Virus record (IMG/VR): IMGVR_UViG_3300001827_000045 | Coordinates: 1 to 28,501 of that record | DNA from: a virus | Reading direction: 5' to 3' (one strand) | DNA: 28,501 nucleotides | Part shown: piece by piece, positions 7,230-21,178 of the stretch | How the letters are laid out: the number at the start of each line of letters is the position of its first letter | Position numbering within the stretch: position 1 is the stretch's first letter | Made by a program: the position numbers and the translations under genes | Notes under the pieces: generated by a model | What the model was told of the DNA's origin: nothing | Seen by the model: only the letters and a program-made list of their open reading frames with translations | Database searches by the model: none

Positions 7230-10200
7230 ATGGAAAACTACAGCCAGTTAAAGCAAGAGCTTATGCGCTTTGAGCAAAACAGGAATACCTTTGGTGGTAG
7301 GTCTGTGCTGCCTACACAAGAGTTTGACGATAGCCTCTTAAAGTCTGACGCTACATTGAAACAGGCTGACTTGTTAAAGCCTGAGTATAACAATATCCTT
7401 CGTGACTATATGATTGAACGTAAGGGTACTGACTATCAGTCTGCCTCTCCTGAAAAAGTAGTAGACGACTTTGTAGAACAAATGCGTTACTTCAATGCAA
7501 ACGTTGTTTCTACAGCAGGCGAGGTACGCTTTATCTCTAAGGCAGATGCCCGTCAGAAAGAGATTGCCTCTCGTGCCTATCAAATCTATGACAGGCTGGG
7601 CAATGTCTTTGTTAACGATGGCTTTGCTGGTGCAGTTGAGGGTGTAGCAGAGTACATTGGTGCTGCTGCTAGTGACCCTACTAACTACATTGGTCTTCTT
7701 ACAGGCGGCATTGCAAGGGGTGCTGCAGTAGGCACGACTATTGGTGGTAGGGCTGCTATTCGTAGTGCCTTGAGCCAAGCAGGACGTTCTACTTTTAGGG
7801 CAACAGCTAATCAGGCTGCAGCTAAAGAGGCTTCTGAACGTGCTGGCATTGAAGCTGCACGTAGACTTGTCAGAGAAGGCTACAACACCAGAGTTGCAGG
7901 CGGGGTATACAAGACTGTAGCTGAAAGAGTTGAGCGTGAAGGCTTAGCTGCTCTAGGCAGACAGGCTCGTACTAAAGCCTTGCAAGCTGCAGGAGACAAG
8001 GCTGCTAAACGGTCCTTGCTTTATACTACTGCACTGGACTCCAGCTTTGCCATGTTGCAAGACGTACAAATCCAAAGCGTTATGCTGGATGTAGGTGCAC
8101 AAGAAAAGTATAGCAAGCTGCAGACAGGCTTTAGTGCTCTGGCTGGCGGTATTGCTGGCTTAGCTCAGCTTGGCTTTGGTAAGTTCCGTGGCGCTTCTGG
8201 CCTACAAGACACTGGTGATCCCCTTGAGAGAGTGTCTAACGCTGTCATTGAAGCTTCTATACCTAAACTTAGTAAAGAGGCTACCGATAAAGCTGCTGGT
8301 AACATTGTTGCTGCTATCAAAACTTGGTCTGCTAAAGTGCAAGCTGGTAAGCAGTATGATGCACTTCCAGTTGAAGTTTTTAAAGAAATAGTATTAGGTA
8401 AACAGACAGAAACTGCAGGTAAGGTAATCTATGAGGGTGGTATTCTCGGAGCTTTCAAAGATGCTAACGTAAAGTTCTCTCGTAATGATACGATCTCTGA
8501 CGTTATGACTAACTTTGTTAGTTTCTTAGATGATAGTCAGCTTAAAGAGATTAACGATGTGCTTGAGATTACTGGCATTAAGCTGGGAGAGTTATCTGAG
8601 ACACGTGTTAAACTTGGAGAATTGCTTGCTAAGCAGATTAGCGAAGACGCTAAAGTGCTTAACACTATGTCTATCTTCCGTAGACAAGTAGACGCTCAGC
8701 TTGTAGCCGCTACAGATTCTTTGGATGCAAAGCTTGCTGCTGTTAATGCTAAGGAAACTATTGATGAAGCTTTAGATAACCCGGATAAACTGAAGTATAT
8801 GCAGTCTGTTTGGAAGCGTCTGCTTGTGTCCTCGCCTGCAACAACTATGGCTAACGTTGCTGGCTTTACTCAATACTATGCAGGGCAAACACTAGCAGAC
8901 CTATTCAATGCCACTACTCTTGTAGGCTCTGCTATGCTTAAAGCACCCTTTAATAAGCAAGGTGCTTCTGAAGCACTTCGTCAAGCAAGAGCATTGAGTA
9001 CACTGCAAGCACAAAAGCTGCGTAACTTGATGGACCCCTACACTACGCATGACGCATATCTCAACTTCCTTAAAGTAAACCCTGATGTTGAGAAGCTTCT
9101 GTTTGAGACTGTGACGAGCGGCGTTGAACGTACATCTCGTAGGTTTGGTGTTAATCCTGAGGCAAAATGGTTTAAGCGTACTGAAGCTTTTGCTAATGGC
9201 GCTAACATGATTACAGGTGTCCGTGTTCAAGACAGCTTCACTAAGTCCCAGATGTTTATGGGAGAACTTGATAAGTATCTTCGCTTGAAGAAGGGTACTA
9301 CTCTGCGTGAAGCTATGCAGAATGGTGCTGTAGATACTATAGATGATGACGTTTTGAATGCCGCTACAGATACTACGCTGCGTTCTGTTTTTGCTAAGGA
9401 CTACACAACACTAGATCAGCCTGAGCTTCTTCGCAGTGCTGCCTCTTTAGTAGAGAAGTTCTCTGCTACTCCAGTGCTGGGTACAGTCCTTCCTTTCGGA
9501 CGCTTCTTTAATAACGTTCTTGCAACAGCGTATCAGTGGACACCTCTTGCTGCACCAGAGTTACTTATTAAGTTTGGGTACAGGACAATTAAAGGCGGTG
9601 AAAAGAGCTTAACAGAAGCAGACGCTCTCTCTAGAATGCTTGTAGGCACTACTGCTCTTGGTCTTGCAGCACAGTATGACAAGGGTCGCAGAGAAAAAGG
9701 TCTTGATACCTTTGAAGTAGAGACTGCTGGTGGTACTATTATTGACGCTAAGAATACGTATCCCTTCTCTCTGTTCCTTGCACTAGGCAGAGCTATTAAT
9801 CTTAAAGCAAGCGGTGAATCCATTCCAAAAGAGCTTCAAGAGGATGCTCTTATCCAACTAGGCGTTGGACAGCTTGCAAGAGATGCTCAGTTTGGTAATG
9901 ACTTGTACAACCTGTTTGACCTTGTGTTTAACGGTGACGAAGGTAGTGCTCGTGGTGGTCAAACCGCTGCTGCTTTTGCTAAAACCTTTGGTAACTTTGC
10001 GGCTGGCTTTACTCGTCCTCTTGATGCAGTCAATAAGATTGCTGGCTTTGCAATGGAAACAGATACGGCAAAGGATATCAGGCAGGCCGGAACAGCAGGT
10101 GAGACTTTTAGCCTTAGTGCTACCAAGTACATTGACAATATCATTGAAGCTTTCATTGACAAGACAGACAGTATCACAGGCGAAGAGCTACGTGTAGGTA

Positions 10201-10721
10201 CACGTGAAGGGGAGCTATACGATCCTAACCCATTTGCTCGTATCTTTGGTGTTACTGTTGTACCGGGTCGTACTGCTACTGAAAAAGCATACTCTATGTC
10301 TCAGATGCACAAGTGGACTGCTAATGAACGTAGCAACCTACCTGCGTATGACCGTATATTCAACACCATGCTTGCCCCTCTGCTTGAGCAAGAGACACAA
10401 CAGCTTATGAGAAGCAAGCAGTTCCAGCAAGCTGACCTTAACGGCAGACGAACCATGCTAAAGAACAGGCTTACAGAAGTAAGAGCAGAAGTGCGTAATC
10501 GTATGGAGCAAGGCTATGCAGGTGGTGATGGACTACGGCTAAGACTTGTCAGTAAGGTTAGCCGTAAAGGCACAAAGGAACAGCGTAACATGGCTATGAA
10601 AATCCTTAGGGAAGACTACAATGTTCAAGCAGATATTAACGATCTAAACATAGCTGAGCTTGATTTGCTAGATGACATTCTAAAGGGAGTCATAGAGACA
10701 TACAAGAACATCCAGTACTAA
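7230..10721 (+). CDS. Large internal virion / DNA-ejection protein (1163 aa)
   Basis: This is the largest protein in the window and the last gene of the virion block. The N-terminal 130 residues are charged. A Gly/Ala-rich, weakly hydrophobic segment follows (GAVEGVAEYIGAAASDPTNY, then GLLTGGIARGAAVGTTIGG, about 128-168), then long Ala-rich helices. Around 745-765 is 'TPVLGTVLPFGRFFNN', a pattern I associate with very large phage ejection proteins. No lytic transglycosylase motif was seen, unlike T7 gp16. By size, position and composition it should be an internal core protein that helps carry DNA across the envelope. The stop is at 10719-10721, immediately before the terminator. Confidence 0.65.
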   Translation: MENYSQLKQELMRFEQNRNTFGGRSVLPTQEFDDSLLKSDATLKQADLLKPEYNNILRDYMIERKGTDYQSASPEKVVDDFVEQMRYFNANVVSTAGEVRFISKADARQKEIASRAYQIYDRLGNVFVNDGFAGAVEGVAEYIGAAASDPTNYIGLLTGGIARGAAVGTTIGGRAAIRSALSQAGRSTFRATANQAAAKEASERAGIEAARRLVREGYNTRVAGGVYKTVAERVEREGLAALGRQARTKALQAAGDKAAKRSLLYTTALDSSFAMLQDVQIQSVMLDVGAQEKYSKLQTGFSALAGGIAGLAQLGFGKFRGASGLQDTGDPLERVSNAVIEASIPKLSKEATDKAAGNIVAAIKTWSAKVQAGKQYDALPVEVFKEIVLGKQTETAGKVIYEGGILGAFKDANVKFSRNDTISDVMTNFVSFLDDSQLKEINDVLEITGIKLGELSETRVKLGELLAKQISEDAKVLNTMSIFRRQVDAQLVAATDSLDAKLAAVNAKETIDEALDNPDKLKYMQSVWKRLLVSSPATTMANVAGFTQYYAGQTLADLFNATTLVGSAMLKAPFNKQGASEALRQARALSTLQAQKLRNLMDPYTTHDAYLNFLKVNPDVEKLLFETVTSGVERTSRRFGVNPEAKWFKRTEAFANGANMITGVRVQDSFTKSQMFMGELDKYLRLKKGTTLREAMQNGAVDTIDDDVLNAATDTTLRSVFAKDYTTLDQPELLRSAASLVEKFSATPVLGTVLPFGRFFNNVLATAYQWTPLAAPELLIKFGYRTIKGGEKSLTEADALSRMLVGTTALGLAAQYDKGRREKGLDTFEVETAGGTIIDAKNTYPFSLFLALGRAINLKASGESIPKELQEDALIQLGVGQLARDAQFGNDLYNLFDLVFNGDEGSARGGQTAAAFAKTFGNFAAGFTRPLDAVNKIAGFAMETDTAKDIRQAGTAGETFSLSATKYIDNIIEAFIDKTDSITGEELRVGTREGELYDPNPFARIFGVTVVPGRTATEKAYSMSQMHKWTANERSNLPAYDRIFNTMLAPLLEQETQQLMRSKQFQQADLNGRRTMLKNRLTEVRAEVRNRMEQGYAGGDGLRLRLVSKVSRKGTKEQRNMAMKILREDYNVQADINDLNIAELDLLDDILKGVIETYKNIQY

Positions 10722-10724
10722 CAA

Positions 10725-10757
10725 AAAGAAGAGGGGCCATTCGGCCCCTTTACTTTA
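10725..10757. terminator. Bidirectional rho-independent terminator between convergent blocks
   Basis: The stem AGGGGCC (10732-10738), loop ATTC and stem GGCCCCT (10743-10749) are perfectly complementary. The plus-strand tail is TTACTTTATT; the reverse strand reads hairpin then CTTCTTTTTGT. The hairpin ends the + block and probably also the - block, whose last stop codon (10750-10752) abuts the stem. Confidence 0.85.
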
Positions 10758-10953
10758 TTCCGTGTAGCTCTGCTGCTTCTTCTGCCCATAGAATGCTAGA
10801 GTGTAGCTGTCTTAATGCGTTGTCTTTTTCGTGACTATCATATAGATTAGCATTTATATACTTAATCATAGTCAGTTGAAGATCACGTAACTCTTCATTG
10901 AACAGCTTCTTCTTACTCAGGGCATACGCTCTTGCCTCGTCTTCCAACCCCAT
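10750..10953 (-). CDS. 67-aa protein resembling Acb2/Tad1-type anti-CBASS sponge
   Basis: A small, all-helical, charged protein and the last gene of the - block. The C-terminal half reads YDSHEKDNALRQLHSSILWA followed by EEAAELHGIK. This matches the pattern I remember for the Acb2/Tad1 hairpin family: '(D)SREKxxALxxLEEAxxWAxxAI' after an N-terminal helix rich in Lys/Arg. Acb2 proteins bind cyclic oligonucleotide second messengers and so block CBASS defence; Tyr10 and the Lys14-16 cluster fall where the family has its ligand-binding aromatic and basic residues. That is inference from pattern only. The ATG at 10953 lies just after the PhoH stop, with AGGG nine bases upstream. If not Acb2, it is an unassigned small helical phage protein. 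Confidence 0.6.
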   Translation of the reverse strand: MGLEDEARAYALSKKKLFNEELRDLQLTMIKYINANLYDSHEKDNALRQLHSSILWAEEAAELHGIK

Positions 10954-10956
10954 TAC

Positions 10957-11667
10957 TCATAGCCCTTCCTTCATAAATATCTTAACCCATTCAGCGCAGA
11001 TGTCAGACCTTACAATGTCTTCTACGCTAAACTCAATAATGGGGATAGGCAACATATACTTCTTAGCTAGGTGGATAATCTTAGATAGTCCGTCTACTTC
11101 TTTAAGGTCTGACTGTTGCACATCGCCATTCAGTACAATGGTACTACCTTCACCTACACGTGTCAACAACATCTTTAACTCGTGTGTTGTGATGTTCTGA
11201 GTTTCATCTACAATAATGAAAGCATTCTCAAAGCTACGGCCCCGCATCAGAGCTAGTGGTGCCATCTCTATGTTGCCATTCTTTATGCCAGTCTCTACAG
11301 CACCTCTTCCTAAGTGTTTCTGTAGAACATCCAGCACGGGTAGCGCCCACGGGTATGTCTTTTCTTCTAGTGTACCGGGAAGAAAGCCAAGCTCTTTACC
11401 TACTGCTACGTGAGGGCGAGTAATAACGATCTTGTCAATCTCTTTGAGAGTATACAGATCAGCAGCATACGTAGCTGTAACGTAAGTCTTACCTGTTCCT
11501 GCAGGGCCAAGCACAAACACTTGTTCACTTTGCTTTATGGCATCTAGTAAAGCCTTTTGCTTTTCTGTCTTAGGGACTAGGCCAGAGACAGGCTTAGCTT
11601 CTGCATTCTTATAATTAGTCTTGCGGCGAGTGCGGGACTGTTTGACAGGAGGTTCATTGGTGTTCAT
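10957..11667 (-). CDS. phoH: PhoH-like P-loop ATPase
   Basis: A 236-aa protein with Walker A GPAGTGKT at residues 54-61, Walker B 'FIIVDETQN' about 150-158, and the PhoH-typical stretches 'VITRPHVAVGKELGFLPGTL' and 'RVGEGSTIVLNGDVQQSDL'. The N-terminal ~30 residues are basic and disordered. PhoH genes are very common in marine phages. The protein is a cytosolic ATPase, possibly acting on RNA, but its role in infection is unsettled and not necessarily tied to phosphate. The ATG overlaps the stop of the endonuclease VII gene (ATGA), so translation is probably coupled. Confidence 0.92.
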   Translation of the reverse strand: MNTNEPPVKQSRTRRKTNYKNAEAKPVSGLVPKTEKQKALLDAIKQSEQVFVLGPAGTGKTYVTATYAADLYTLKEIDKIVITRPHVAVGKELGFLPGTLEEKTYPWALPVLDVLQKHLGRGAVETGIKNGNIEMAPLALMRGRSFENAFIIVDETQNITTHELKMLLTRVGEGSTIVLNGDVQQSDLKEVDGLSKIIHLAKKYMLPIPIIEFSVEDIVRSDICAEWVKIFMKEGL

Positions 11668-12245: not shown

Positions 12246-12332
12246 TGGTGCCAACTGTCGGACTCGAACCGACACGCCCATAAGAGCAAGAGATTTTAAG
12301 TCTCTGGTGTCTACCTATTCCACCAAGTTGGC
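12246..12332 (-). tRNA. tRNA-Leu (anticodon UAA)
   Basis: Reading the minus strand, acceptor GCCAACT pairs with AGTTGGC, followed by A and an encoded CCA. The anticodon arm is AGAGA-CTTAAAA-TCTCT, giving anticodon UAA. There is a long type II variable arm, and the T arm is GTCGG-TTCGAGT-CCGAC. All arms fold. The 5' end overlaps the 3' end of the upstream gene by 22 bases. Confidence 0.95.
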
Positions 12333-13021
12333 TTAGTCATTAGTTTTTTATGTTTAGAATACTTGGATAGAAACACATTACGAGATGCGTACTTATTTCG
12401 CAAGGTATCCCATTCATCTTTTGATACTAGCTTATGCTCAAACTCAACTTGTTTTTCTGTCATAGGATATAGGATAGCCAAGGGAGTATTTGCGTGAATA
12501 GTAAACTGTGGTGTATCTCTAGGCATTGCTATGTTTATGTTTAAGCAGTGCTGATACTTGAAGTCCAATACACCAGTAGCTATACGCCAAGGGGCATTAA
12601 AGTTAGAGTAGTAAGCATCCGTTAGAACAAAGTCTATGCCTGTAGTCTCTTCTAAAATCCACGAACTGTCAATCTTTATATGGCCTACATCATATGCTCC
12701 TTTCTGCTGTATAGAAAACTCTTTAATTCTTTCCGCAGCAGATGCATTTGGTGTTACCCATCTTGGGTTTCCTTCTGTACTTTCAATAATAACATCTGTC
12801 TGACAAGGTATCAACACACCTTTAGATAGAGTAGAAATAACAGCAGGGCACCTTTTTATCGTAGGTACTGGCATCCTTATGCCATTAACATCAAGCTCAT
12901 ACTCTGATGCAGTGTCTTTAAACCAGTTAGGAATGTTTGACGTTGCCTTACGTAACTTGTAGAACTCGTAATGATTTGGGTCATGAGTATACGCAGTCAC
13001 AATCGCTTTACGTCTAAACAT
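12311..13021 (-). CDS. Conserved phage protein, DUF6065-like
   Basis: A 236-aa protein with no catalytic motif I can name. Features seen: 'NIPNWFKD' near the N-terminus, 'IKRCPAVISTLSKGVLIPCQ' (about 55-74), 'DVIIES', 'SWILEETTGIDFVLTDAYY', and 'FTIHANTPLAILYPMTEKQ' near residue 190. This resembles the DUF6065-type layout (P-x-W...CP...GxxIP...D...GTPL) known from phages and a few bacteria without assigned function; that is from memory. The last seven codons (KPTWWNR) lie inside tRNA-Leu, so transcript processing would cut the message there. The start at 13021 has AAGGATGC just upstream. Confidence 0.65.
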   Translation of the reverse strand: MFRRKAIVTAYTHDPNHYEFYKLRKATSNIPNWFKDTASEYELDVNGIRMPVPTIKRCPAVISTLSKGVLIPCQTDVIIESTEGNPRWVTPNASAAERIKEFSIQQKGAYDVGHIKIDSSWILEETTGIDFVLTDAYYSNFNAPWRIATGVLDFKYQHCLNINIAMPRDTPQFTIHANTPLAILYPMTEKQVEFEHKLVSKDEWDTLRNKYASRNVFLSKYSKHKKLMTKPTWWNR

Positions 13022-13038: not shown

Positions 13039-13476
13039 TTACAGATTGATAGTCTCAACTTCAGCATAGGGAATGTGATAAAACAACTCTCCCTTTAGGA
13101 TGTTACGACCACTAGCTTCTTTCAATCGTTCTGGCTTAAGTGCGCTGTCCTTGATACGGAAACACTGCTTAAAGTCTTTACGGAAGATGTAGAAGTTTAG
13201 AAACCCAGAGCCATACTTATCCAGCAAACGAGTCTTACGTTCAGGGATACGTACTTCGGCCCAGTGTGTAGGCCACGGGCCATCCCATGCTACCTTAACC
13301 TCTGCTTCGTTGTAGTATGTGTTACCGTTTTTAGTAGACACGATATCTACGTAGAAGTCTTCGTCTGTTTTGGTGATGGTGTGACCACGGTTAATGAGCA
13401 AACTGTTAAGTGCGGTTTTTGCTGAAGCATCGTATGCTTGATATAAGGCACGGTTAAAAGGTTTGCGTACAGCCAT
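13039..13476 (-). CDS. Putative PD-(D/E)XK nuclease-like protein (145 aa)
   Basis: The start chosen is the ATG at 13476, preceded by AAGGAAAG seven bases upstream; the frame is open back to 13521 but only because it runs through tRNA-Thr. 'FYVDIVS' (Asp44) and, 15 residues later, 'EAEVKVAW' (Glu59-x-Lys61) give the D...ExK pattern of PD-(D/E)XK nucleases. It is followed by 'WAEVRIPERKTRLL' and 'FLNFYIFRKD', where strands of that fold would lie. Alone this is suggestive only. Homologues are, as I recall, annotated as hypothetical in roseophage-type genomes. It sits between two tRNA genes, outside the main nuclease cluster. Confidence 0.55.
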   Translation of the reverse strand: MAVRKPFNRALYQAYDASAKTALNSLLINRGHTITKTDEDFYVDIVSTKNGNTYYNEAEVKVAWDGPWPTHWAEVRIPERKTRLLDKYGSGFLNFYIFRKDFKQCFRIKDSALKPERLKEASGRNILKGELFYHIPYAEVETINL

Positions 13477-13491
13477 TGTCTTTCCTTTTGA

Positions 13492-13567
13492 TGGTGCTGG
13501 CAGTAGGACTTGAACCCACAACCTCCTGATTACAAATCAGATGCTCTGCCAGTTGAGCTATGCCAGC
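13492..13567 (-). tRNA. tRNA-Thr (anticodon UGU)
   Basis: On the minus strand, acceptor GCTGGCA pairs with TGCCAGC, followed by A and an encoded CCA. The anticodon arm is TCTGA-TTTGTAA-TCAGG, giving anticodon UGU. The T arm is TGTGG-GTTCAAG-TCCTA type with a normal GTTCAAGTCC loop. It is 76 nt including CCA. Confidence 0.95.
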
Positions 13568-16931: not shown

Positions 16932-17366
16932 TCAGTCCCTTCGTTTAACTATGAGTTTCTTATTCTTAGTACGTGAACCTGCTTCTGTCAACCACTCTTC
17001 GGGTATAACTCTGTGTGACCACTTAAAATTATTCTTGTCACACCAATCACAGTAGCGTGTCTTAGCACCCTTGTACAGCTTGGCTTTAGAATTGCTGAAC
17101 ACAAAGCGTATATCTAGGTTAGGGTGCTGTCTCTGTATCTCTAAGTGCTTATGTCTATCTTCGCTGTCAAAGATGCCTTTAGTCTCAACAAGGATGCCAT
17201 TGTCTAACTCAAAGTCTGGCGTGTAAGTACGGTAGCGTAGGTCTTCCCACTCAATCCTTAGCTCTTCGTAGCATACTTTCTTCTGCCGTTCTTTAAGGAA
17301 AGCAGCGGCCTCTTTTTCAAGGCCACTGCGATACCGTCTTACGTTATGCTTCCGTGCTGTCGTCAT
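16932..17366 (-). CDS. T7-type endonuclease I (Holliday junction resolvase)
   Basis: A 144-aa protein, close to the 149 aa of T7 gp3. The catalytic set lines up by eye: Glu17 in 'SGLEKE', Asp51 in 'YTPDFEL', Glu61 and Lys63 in 'VETKG', equivalent to T7 Glu20, Asp55, Glu65 and Lys67. The end contains 'YCDWCDKNNFKW' and 'IPEEWL', also typical. It nicks branched DNA and, in T7, helps degrade host DNA. It overlaps the exonuclease gene by 23 bases and precedes a hypothetical gene by one base. Together with endonuclease VII the phage has two resolvase families. Confidence 0.92.
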   Translation of the reverse strand: MTTARKHNVRRYRSGLEKEAAAFLKERQKKVCYEELRIEWEDLRYRTYTPDFELDNGILVETKGIFDSEDRHKHLEIQRQHPNLDIRFVFSNSKAKLYKGAKTRYCDWCDKNNFKWSHRVIPEEWLTEAGSRTKNKKLIVKRRD

Positions 17367-19120: not shown

Positions 19121-19149
19121 GTTATACCGTCATACGTCCTTTGTGTCAA
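19121..19149 (-). promoter_or_regulatory. Sigma70-type promoter for the SSB-candidate gene
   Basis: On the minus strand, TTGACA (19149-19144) and TATAAC (19126-19121) are separated by exactly 17 bases. It overlaps the last codons of the DNA polymerase gene and lies about 32 bases upstream of the start codon at 19088. The -35 is perfect and the -10 has five of six consensus bases. Confidence 0.75.
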
Positions 19150-21178
19150 GCCAATTCGGACCTATTTTTGCTTCCAAAAGTAGCTCGACGTTTAACTTTA
19201 TGCCGTAAGTATCCTCTACCAAAGAGTTAATGTTCTGGTTGAGGCTATCAATAATATGTATCACCCTATCTTTTTCTGACGGGTGTACATCAACAACCAT
19301 ACTGTCGTGTACTGTGTTTACAAGTACCGACTGCAAGGGCTGCAGCATACGAGCCAACTCGTTAAACACAACAGGTACTACATCCCCTGTAGCAAAGCCC
19401 TGCACAGGGTAGTTCTTAATCATAGTGAAGTGCGTAGGCGTTCCGTTAGCCCTACGTGCTATGTCAGGGAAGGCATACTGTCTGCCGCTTACGTTAGTGA
19501 TCTTCATAAAGCGCAGCGCCTCATTAGCCAGCTTCTTGTGCCAAGCCCCTATGCCCTGATACTTCTCAGTGAAGTGCGTGTAGTATGCCTGCTCTGCCTT
19601 GCTACGGCCATAACCTGTAGCACCAAACAGCGGTGCAAAGGTATGTTCTTTAGCTGCCTGCCGGGACGTAGGCTGGCCTGCATCAGTAATAACTTTAGCA
19701 GTGTAGCTGTGAACATCAAACCCTGTCTCAATCTCCCGCATTGCAACACTATCCTGTGCCAGAAAGGCAGCAGTGCGAAACTCTAGTTGTGCAAAGTCAG
19801 CTTCCATGATGTAGCCACCATCCCACCGAGAGGTGAACACACGTTTAACTGGGAACGTACCGCCACGTGGCATATTCTGCATATTAGGATTACGACCAGA
19901 GAAGCGGCCAGTAGCTGTTATGTGCTGCGTCAATCCTACATGAAGGAAGTCGTCATGCTTAGTGTAGCCTTCGATACCATCTACAAAACTAGATAGGTAA
20001 CTAGACACAGCGGACAGCCTCTTAAGATCAGACAAGAATGTAACTGCATCCTGCATGTTGTTATTCTTAGCTGTAGAGATAAGCGTGTCAAGGTTATCTT
20101 TGCCCGTGCTGAAACCATTAGCACTGACCCATGCCTTACTTGGTGCTGTAAACTTAAGTCCAGCCACCTGCTTAGTCTCTTCTAGTTGATAGCCACGGGC
20201 ATCGCAGTCCTTACATTTGTTAGGCTTGCTATACTTTGTGCCATCCTTCCTTACTTTGTAGGTTTTGCCTTGTCCCTCACAGGTAGGACAAGTGAATGCC
20301 TTAGTGCGATACAAGGTCTTACTGTTTGCATTGACTGCAGCTTTAAACTCTTGTGGTGTATTCGTAAAGTTGAACAGGTCTACCCATTCTTTCTTATTGT
20401 TTACACTACGAGAGAACACAACCTGAGACATTTGCTCTGGTGAGTTGAGGTTAATAGGCGTATCGCCCATAAGCTCACGCACTTTGTATTGCAAGCGTGT
20501 CTCAATGTCAGCACGTTCCTTCTCAAACAAGTCACGTACTTTGTTTAGTTCTTGCCTGTCTACTTTGAACCCTGACATATACATTCGGGTAAGGGTTTTG
20601 CAGGTTCTGAAAGTAACTCCTCTAACGGTTGAAAGGGAGTTGGATTCGGGCTTGGCATAATCCCGTTCGATTGAGTGGAACAACTCACTAGTAGTGAGAA
20701 GGTCACACCGGAGATAATGGCTAAGCTCACGAAGAGGAATCTCGTTAGTATTACATCCTTGCTTAAAGTAAGTCTTAAGCGTGTCATCTTTCTGTACCTC
20801 TAGGTTGCGCCGCTCAGCACAAGCGGCAAGAGACAGTGGCTGCTTCTGTCCACGTAGCAACAGATACTCTGCAAGCATAGTGTCATATACGTCACCGTCA
20901 TACTTGAAGCCACTCTCCCACAGCCACATCAAGTCGTGCTGTAGGTTGTGACCAATAAGCAGGGTAGTCATGTCTAGTACTTGCTGTACAAAGGCACGAC
21001 CTAGCCCTGACTTGTCTTTGTATTCTACGTGATCCAGTGTTACAATGTGCAACTCTTCGTGATTGTCTACGTTAAGAAGGCCCACTTGAGTCAAGCTATT
21101 CAAAGGTTCAAACGGATCAATGTGATCCCGTCCATCCCGCTTAGTGATACTATTCTCTACGTCTAGTACAAGTCGCAT
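19130..21178 (-). CDS. Family-A (T7-like) replicative DNA polymerase
   Basis: A 682-aa protein (T7 gp5 has 704). The 3'-5' exonuclease domain shows Asp6/Glu8 ('LVLDVEN'), 'GHNLQHDLMW' (Asp82) and 'YLRCDL' (Tyr155, Asp159). The polymerase domain shows motif A 'MEADFAQLEFR' (Asp461), motif B 'RQAAKEHTFAPLFGATGYG' (506-524) and motif C 'TVHDSMVVDV' (His624, Asp625). All catalytic residues are present, so it should be active with proofreading. In the thumb region residues 297-325 form an unusual CxxC...CxxC zinc-ribbon-like insert, about where T7 polymerase has its thioredoxin-binding loop. The helicase gene ends 11 bases upstream. It is the phage replicase. Confidence 0.95.
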   Translation of the reverse strand: MRLVLDVENSITKRDGRDHIDPFEPLNSLTQVGLLNVDNHEELHIVTLDHVEYKDKSGLGRAFVQQVLDMTTLLIGHNLQHDLMWLWESGFKYDGDVYDTMLAEYLLLRGQKQPLSLAACAERRNLEVQKDDTLKTYFKQGCNTNEIPLRELSHYLRCDLLTTSELFHSIERDYAKPESNSLSTVRGVTFRTCKTLTRMYMSGFKVDRQELNKVRDLFEKERADIETRLQYKVRELMGDTPINLNSPEQMSQVVFSRSVNNKKEWVDLFNFTNTPQEFKAAVNANSKTLYRTKAFTCPTCEGQGKTYKVRKDGTKYSKPNKCKDCDARGYQLEETKQVAGLKFTAPSKAWVSANGFSTGKDNLDTLISTAKNNNMQDAVTFLSDLKRLSAVSSYLSSFVDGIEGYTKHDDFLHVGLTQHITATGRFSGRNPNMQNMPRGGTFPVKRVFTSRWDGGYIMEADFAQLEFRTAAFLAQDSVAMREIETGFDVHSYTAKVITDAGQPTSRQAAKEHTFAPLFGATGYGRSKAEQAYYTHFTEKYQGIGAWHKKLANEALRFMKITNVSGRQYAFPDIARRANGTPTHFTMIKNYPVQGFATGDVVPVVFNELARMLQPLQSVLVNTVHDSMVVDVHPSEKDRVIHIIDSLNQNINSLVEDTYGIKLNVELLLEAKIGPNWLDTKDV
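20204..20290 (-). other. Zinc-ribbon-like CxxC...CxxC insert within the DNA polymerase
   Basis: Codons 297-325 of the polymerase encode CPTCEGQGKTYKV and, after a Lys-rich loop, CKDCDARGY. The CxxCxGxG start is like the DnaJ/zinc-ribbon type. It lies between the thumb helix (SPEQMSQVVF, about 246-255) and the continuation 'STGKDNLDTLIST'. Metal binding is inferred from four well-spaced cysteines. Confidence 0.65.

Follow-up and report, generated by a model that had tools for sequence, protein, structure and literature searches.

The last gene in the early block of this marine virus encodes a 67-aa protein that is very probably a remote relative within the Acb2/Tad1 hairpin superfamily, and its likeliest mechanism, held with moderate confidence, is that of a divergent hexameric nucleotide-signal sponge with altered specificity. 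The window, which is the whole stretch of 28,501 nt analysed here (IMG/VR record IMGVR_UViG_3300001827_000045), carries the gene as a minus-strand open reading frame of 67 codons running from 10953 to 10750, with the translation MGLEDEARAYALSKKKLFNEELRDLQLTMIKYINANLYDSHEKDNALRQLHSSILWAEEAAELHGIK in the ORF list. The first-pass annotation, made from the sequence alone, had proposed at this place an Acb2-like sponge against CBASS without stating the strand, and the reading frame it described is present. The features discussed below are collected in Table 1.

Table 1. Features of the 67-aa gene, its product and its surroundings in the window
Feature	Position	Strand	Basis
67-aa gene, divergent Acb2/Tad1-type hairpin protein (very probable)	10750..10953	-	ORF list; syntenic orthologues, purifying selection; profile match to PF24729 members and T4 Vs.4
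Helix 1, residues 3-36 (predicted)	10846..10947	-	AlphaFold2
Helix 2, residues 40-64 (predicted)	10762..10836	-	AlphaFold2
N-terminal motif LEDEARAY, residues 3-10 (family [LI]ExEAxx[FY])	10924..10947	-	Column composition; motif scan
Family signature DSxEKxxALxxLxxSxxWAxxA, residues 39-60, with the counterparts of T4 Vs.4 A66, A73, A77 (hexamer interface) and W76	10774..10839	-	Ungapped profile-profile alignment; T4 roles from PMC10097602
Conserved C-terminal tail HGIK, residues 64-67	10753..10764	-	Column composition
phoH, directly upstream in the block	10957..11667	-	PF02562, 9e-66
RBS-like AAGGAAGGG, purine-rich, within the 3' end of phoH	10963..10971	-	Sequence
Intrinsic terminator-like stem-loop closing the early block	10732..10749	-	Terminator scan and fold
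Converging 1163-aa gene, hypothetical, conserved neighbour	7230..10721	+	ORF; same neighbour in most orthologous loci
DNA polymerase with DnaJ-like zinc insert CPTCEGQG...CKDCDARG (CxxCxGxG-type)	19130-21178	-	Translation

Genomic context and conservation of the gene

The window contains genes for PhoH, endonuclease VII, ribonucleotide reductase, a ThyX-like protein, a DUF3310 protein and DNA polymerase. A DNA polymerase with a DnaJ-like insert is a mark of the HMO-2011-type phages, one of the dominant groups of phages in the sea (PMC9038755). The window falls in this group, in agreement with its earlier description as a marine phage. The 67-aa gene lies 3 nt from the phoH stop codon and is the last minus-strand gene of the early block, after PhoH and before the terminator, which agrees with the place assigned to it earlier. 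The terminator-like stem-loop is strong, GC-rich and accompanied by a T run, with a z of -3.2 against shuffles; it stands between the 67-aa gene and the converging plus-strand gene, and would by its sequence be bidirectional. The product of the converging gene is presumably an internal virion protein.

Other genes of the window include a plus-strand gene (111-755) for a tail-type protein built of repeated TAAELNxLDGVTAT units. On the minus strand, a hypothetical 236-aa protein (12311-13021) matches phrog_7084 at 2e-19 and has no Pfam family, while a 160-aa protein (13039-13521) has no match in Pfam, PHROGs or PADLOC and an almost identical copy in the near twin of the window.

The nearest annotated relatives of the 67-aa gene are found in the HMO-2011-type Roseobacter phages CRP-2, CRP-603 and CRP-207, at 37-39% identity. 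Orthologues occupy the same genome place in these three isolated phages, and viral contigs contribute more than 45 others. Beyond a near twin (L001, 97%), the scans recovered 24 and 23 orthologous loci, and a profile added a few more. Wherever a locus has enough flanking sequence, the gene nearly always comes directly after PhoH or endonuclease VII, with the 1163-aa gene facing it. Exactly one strong copy was found in each of the 12 phage records searched. The median dN/dS was 0.15 and 0.17 in two clades of the family, indicating purifying selection. Since the orthologues hold the same position and dN/dS is about 0.15, the 67-aa reading frame is a genuine, selected gene, and all members of its family are annotated as hypothetical protein. 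Among 84,980 genomes of bacteria and archaea, a clade A member used as query found no relatives. Tblastn matches in Bacteroides phage SJC03, Pseudomonas phages and Planktothrix phages were weak and were set aside, as profiles gave them no support.

Relationship to the Acb2/Tad1 hairpin superfamily

Searched singly, the window protein matched no family in Pfam or NCBIfam, and PADLOC and the PDB returned nothing useful, the weak PDB matches being designed helical proteins. The HMM search against the Acb2/Tad1 hairpin family that the first-pass annotation had put forward as a check came back empty for this protein in Pfam. Its relatives gave a different picture. The hairpin family PF24729 (Acb2_Tad1_hairpin) was matched by 15 of the 20 family members taken one at a time (E 0.024 to 0.0012), no other family recurring, at scores that stayed below the curated cut-off of 27 bits in every member and reached 17-19 bits in the best orthologues. 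Members also matched phrog_1454 with E values down to 1.8e-6, compared with only 7e-4 for T4 Vs.4, itself a proven sponge. Because gp99 of Gordonia phage Sephiroth matches both phrog_1454 (2.9e-29) and PF24729 (7.5e-20), these two represent the same hairpin family.

Profile-profile comparison extended the relationship. By hhalign, the 67-aa family aligned with ten bona fide PF24729 proteins at a probability of 94.8 and a P of 5.2e-8 over 46 ungapped columns, and the real score of 42.1 exceeded the maxima of 18.7 and 26.5 from two sets of 300 column shuffles. The comparison with 31 relatives of T4 Vs.4 gave a P of 9.4e-7 and a score of 36.8, against shuffle maxima of 19.8 and 28.9 (600 shuffles). 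Actinophage PF24729 proteins compared with Vs.4 scored 34.3, which is no better than the 36.8 of the 67-aa family. A search of the family profile against PDB sequences did not find Acb2. The assignment to Acb2/Tad1 made earlier can be kept as a remote relationship, through the profiles of the relatives, which reach PF24729 members and T4 Vs.4 beyond shuffles, but not as a direct match of the single sequence to any Pfam or NCBIfam family. The name Acb2 should not yet be given to the 67-aa protein.

The spacing DSxEKxxALxxLxxSxxWAxxA, on which that assignment had been based, is found at residues 39-60 (DSHEKDNALRQLHSSILWAEEA), and the remark about a Ser at a position often occupied by Glu in the family also proved accurate, residue 52 being Glu in 33 of 35 family rows and Ser in the other two, those of the window and the near twin. 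With PF24729/phrog_1454 the protein shares the two-helix hairpin, the E-K...A-L...L...(M)W-A spacing within the ungapped alignment and, as an early phage protein, the small size of 60-90 aa. It differs in that its family lies under the Pfam cut-off, the Thr of 'LALT' is replaced by Lys, Arg or Glu, the 'NAAIAR' ending gives way to the HGIK tail, and an N-terminal LExEAxxF of its own is present. The likeness to T4 Vs.4/Acb2 (PDB 7uq2, phrog_717) includes helix 2, where the motif A-K-[ETQD]-[RK]-L-x-E-A-x-M-W-A is nearly the same in one clade, which reads AKERLMEAKMWA where the Vs.4 relatives read AKERLKEASMWA.

Predicted structure

AlphaFold2 predicted the window protein (model m9a82c6161cd1) as an antiparallel two-helix hairpin with a mean pLDDT of 93, bearing out the small helical-hairpin layout that had been noticed, and a clade B member was likewise predicted as a two-helix hairpin. 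Helix 1 is unbroken in the model, whereas Acb2 has a short N-terminal helix; this helix and the loop insertion are missing from the 67-aa protein, which compares with 88 aa for T4 Vs.4. With Tad1 (PDB 8smd, 7uav) only the C-terminal helical hairpin is shared, and the N-terminal beta domain with the gcADPR pocket has no equivalent in the window protein, which is all helical in the model.

When the model was searched against viral models by Foldseek, many of the best matches other than orthologues were named Acb2/Tad1 hairpin, with weak E-values and rmsd values between 1.0 and 1.5 across about 45 residues. In the PDB search Tad1 came second at an E of 1.4, which is not significant. T4 Vs.4 superposed on the model with a Z of 6.8 over 65 residues, a value that unrelated helical folds equalled. 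Acb2 was absent from the VIA-align list for the model, which says little, as this tool re-ranks the list produced by Foldseek itself. Two-helix hairpins match many folds, and structure alone would not settle the family membership.

Packing and ligand-contact residues

In T4 Vs.4 the hexamer packs through L29, F33, A66, A73 and A77, and cGAMP is contacted by Y8, H11, K23, R79 and F82 (PMC10097602). The two sets behave differently in the 35 rows of the 67-aa family alignment. Residues 29 and 33, the counterparts of L29 and F33, are Leu in 30 rows (Met 2, Ile 2, Val 1) and Ile in 29 rows (Leu 6), respectively; residues 46, 53 and 57, the counterparts of A66, A73 and A77, are Ala 31/Ser 3/Val 1, Val 19/Ala 14/Ser 2 and Ala 32/Ser 3. 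As judged from the alignment, the hexamer-interface positions of T4, comprising these Ala and Leu positions, are kept in nearly all rows.

In contrast, four of the five cGAMP contacts (H11, K23, R79 and F82) are not retained as a set across the family. K23 corresponds to residue 23, which is Arg in the window and mostly Gln, Arg or Asn elsewhere; R79 corresponds to residue 59, which is Arg in 22 of 35 rows and Glu in the window; H11 and F82 have no counterpart in the alignment. For Y8 alone is a family-wide counterpart plausible, namely F/Y10, in a register uncertain by 2. The family has a fixed set of its own, K/R14, H/Y64, G65 and K67 together with E4, E6 and A7, and its C-terminal tail is uniform (H/Y, G, I/L/V and K, each 35/35). 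At the open end of the hairpin, the site of the cGAMP pocket in Acb2, the N-terminus and the C-terminus of the protein come together, so that a ligand pocket rebuilt from the protein's own F/Y10, K/R14, H/Y64 and K67 is possible. Going by these residues, the ligand probably differs from that of T4 Acb2. The T4 change T68M lowers binding (PMC12657230); loss of this Thr was considered as evidence against ligand binding and dropped, since only 5 of the 31 Vs.4 relatives have Thr there.

The N-terminal motif in an unrelated protein

CRP-13 gp34, CRP-9 gp35 and more than 100 relatives in viral contigs possess a C-terminal domain unrelated to the 67-aa family and an invariant KKKTLEQEAQEF, which fits the [LI]ExEAxx[FY] of the 67-aa N-terminus. 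In CRP-13 the gp34 gene closes the early block behind PhoH, as the 67-aa gene does in the window. Scanning about 84,000 residues of stop-to-stop frames gave seven occurrences of [LI]ExEAxx[FY], four in the 67-aa family, two in the CRP-13/CRP-9 family and one elsewhere in the window, within a 144-aa protein. The LExEAxxF peptide is either a shared docking element or a chance occurrence in helix-rich sequence. The small terminal genes of P12053L, ICBM2, CRP-13 and CRP-9 were also considered as hairpin homologues and were ruled out by Pfam.

The CRP-13/CRP-9-type family (L156:2203-2454 (+), L159:2708-2956 (-), L160-L239) is characterised by a YFAGxALSGLLASGK...DEAYxYxxxML domain, and some members have an AT-hook-like basic start. 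The 144-aa protein (16932-17366, minus strand) contains YRSGLEKEAAAF... and resembles a phage endonuclease I type resolvase.

Proposed function

We favour a nucleotide-signal sponge because of the descent, the fold, the kept packing residues and the early position of the gene. The functional half of the earlier proposal, binding of cyclic di- and trinucleotides and neutralisation of CBASS, is less certain than the family assignment. The small early protein would form a hexamer of helical hairpins as Acb2 does, of which the present model represents a monomer. Such a hexamer may bind and sequester a host nucleotide second messenger, and with the signal removed a CBASS-type or related abortive defence would not be triggered. 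A pocket rebuilt as described above would confer a different ligand range. If this is true, the phages of Roseobacter-type bacteria in the ocean are under real pressure from CBASS-like defence, a sponge family missed by present annotation becomes visible and testable in the isolates CRP-2, CRP-603 and CRP-207, and the changed pocket residues provide a test case for the evolution of sponge specificity. Several points speak against the sponge: no member passes the PF24729 cut-off, most T4 cGAMP contacts have changed, the first helix of the model is unbroken, the Foldseek E-values to solved structures are not significant, and conservation of LExEAxxF may not concern a ligand, because a protein of unrelated make-up carries the motif at that locus too.

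In a possible though doubtful alternative, the protein has inherited the hairpin fold and the oligomer from Acb2/Tad1 and lost cyclic-nucleotide binding. It would act as a small adaptor, with the N-terminal LExEAxxF docking on a partner from host or phage and the hairpin serving for oligomerisation. The ligand contacts are largely gone, yet E4, E6, A7 and F/Y10 are among the most conserved parts, and the same motif is invariant in CRP-13 in front of an unrelated domain. On the other hand, such an adaptor has no known partner, and the motif is helix-like and recurs in the endonuclease-like protein of the window, so its sharing could be chance. Moreover, loss of the T4 residues is no proof of lost binding, because other functional PF24729 members also diverge from T4 at the ligand positions.

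A bolder form of the sponge proposal, which we regard as unlikely, would make the 67-aa family a new subfamily of the Acb2 superfamily, found in HMO-2011-type marine phages, with its pocket rebuilt for a host nucleotide signal outside those known. Its N-terminal LExEAxxF would be a module exchanged between two unrelated small proteins that take up one and the same place in the genome.

Convergence, by which the protein would be an unrelated small amphipathic two-helix protein such as an accessory of PhoH or endonuclease VII, appears quite improbable. In its favour, the window sequence alone has no Pfam match, and two-helix hairpins are common, the structural Z-scores lying within the background for helical proteins. 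However, the ungapped profile-profile match keeps residue identities and beats 600 of 600 shuffles for PF24729 and 600 of 600 for Vs.4, PF24729 alone recurs among the members, and the gene is tied to neither PhoH nor endonuclease VII, since it follows the one in some phages and the other in others.

A sponge for a non-CBASS nucleotide, such as an ADPR-type signal of Thoeris, a cyclic oligoadenylate of type III CRISPR or a decoy of the Panoptes type, is very improbable. In its favour, the superfamily includes Tad1, which binds gcADPR plus cyclic di- and trinucleotides (PMC12043709), and the pocket residues of the 67-aa family are unlike those of T4 Acb2; against it, the beta domain that helps to form the gcADPR pocket of Tad1 is missing.

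A separate observation concerns an unusual fusion, SUFG_00048 of the Roseobacter-type Sulfitobacter phage phiCB2047-B (L056, NC_020862.2 54471-55037), in which a RyR domain (PF02026, 2e-10) is joined to an Acb2/Tad1 hairpin (PF24729, 1.5e-7, over the cut-off).
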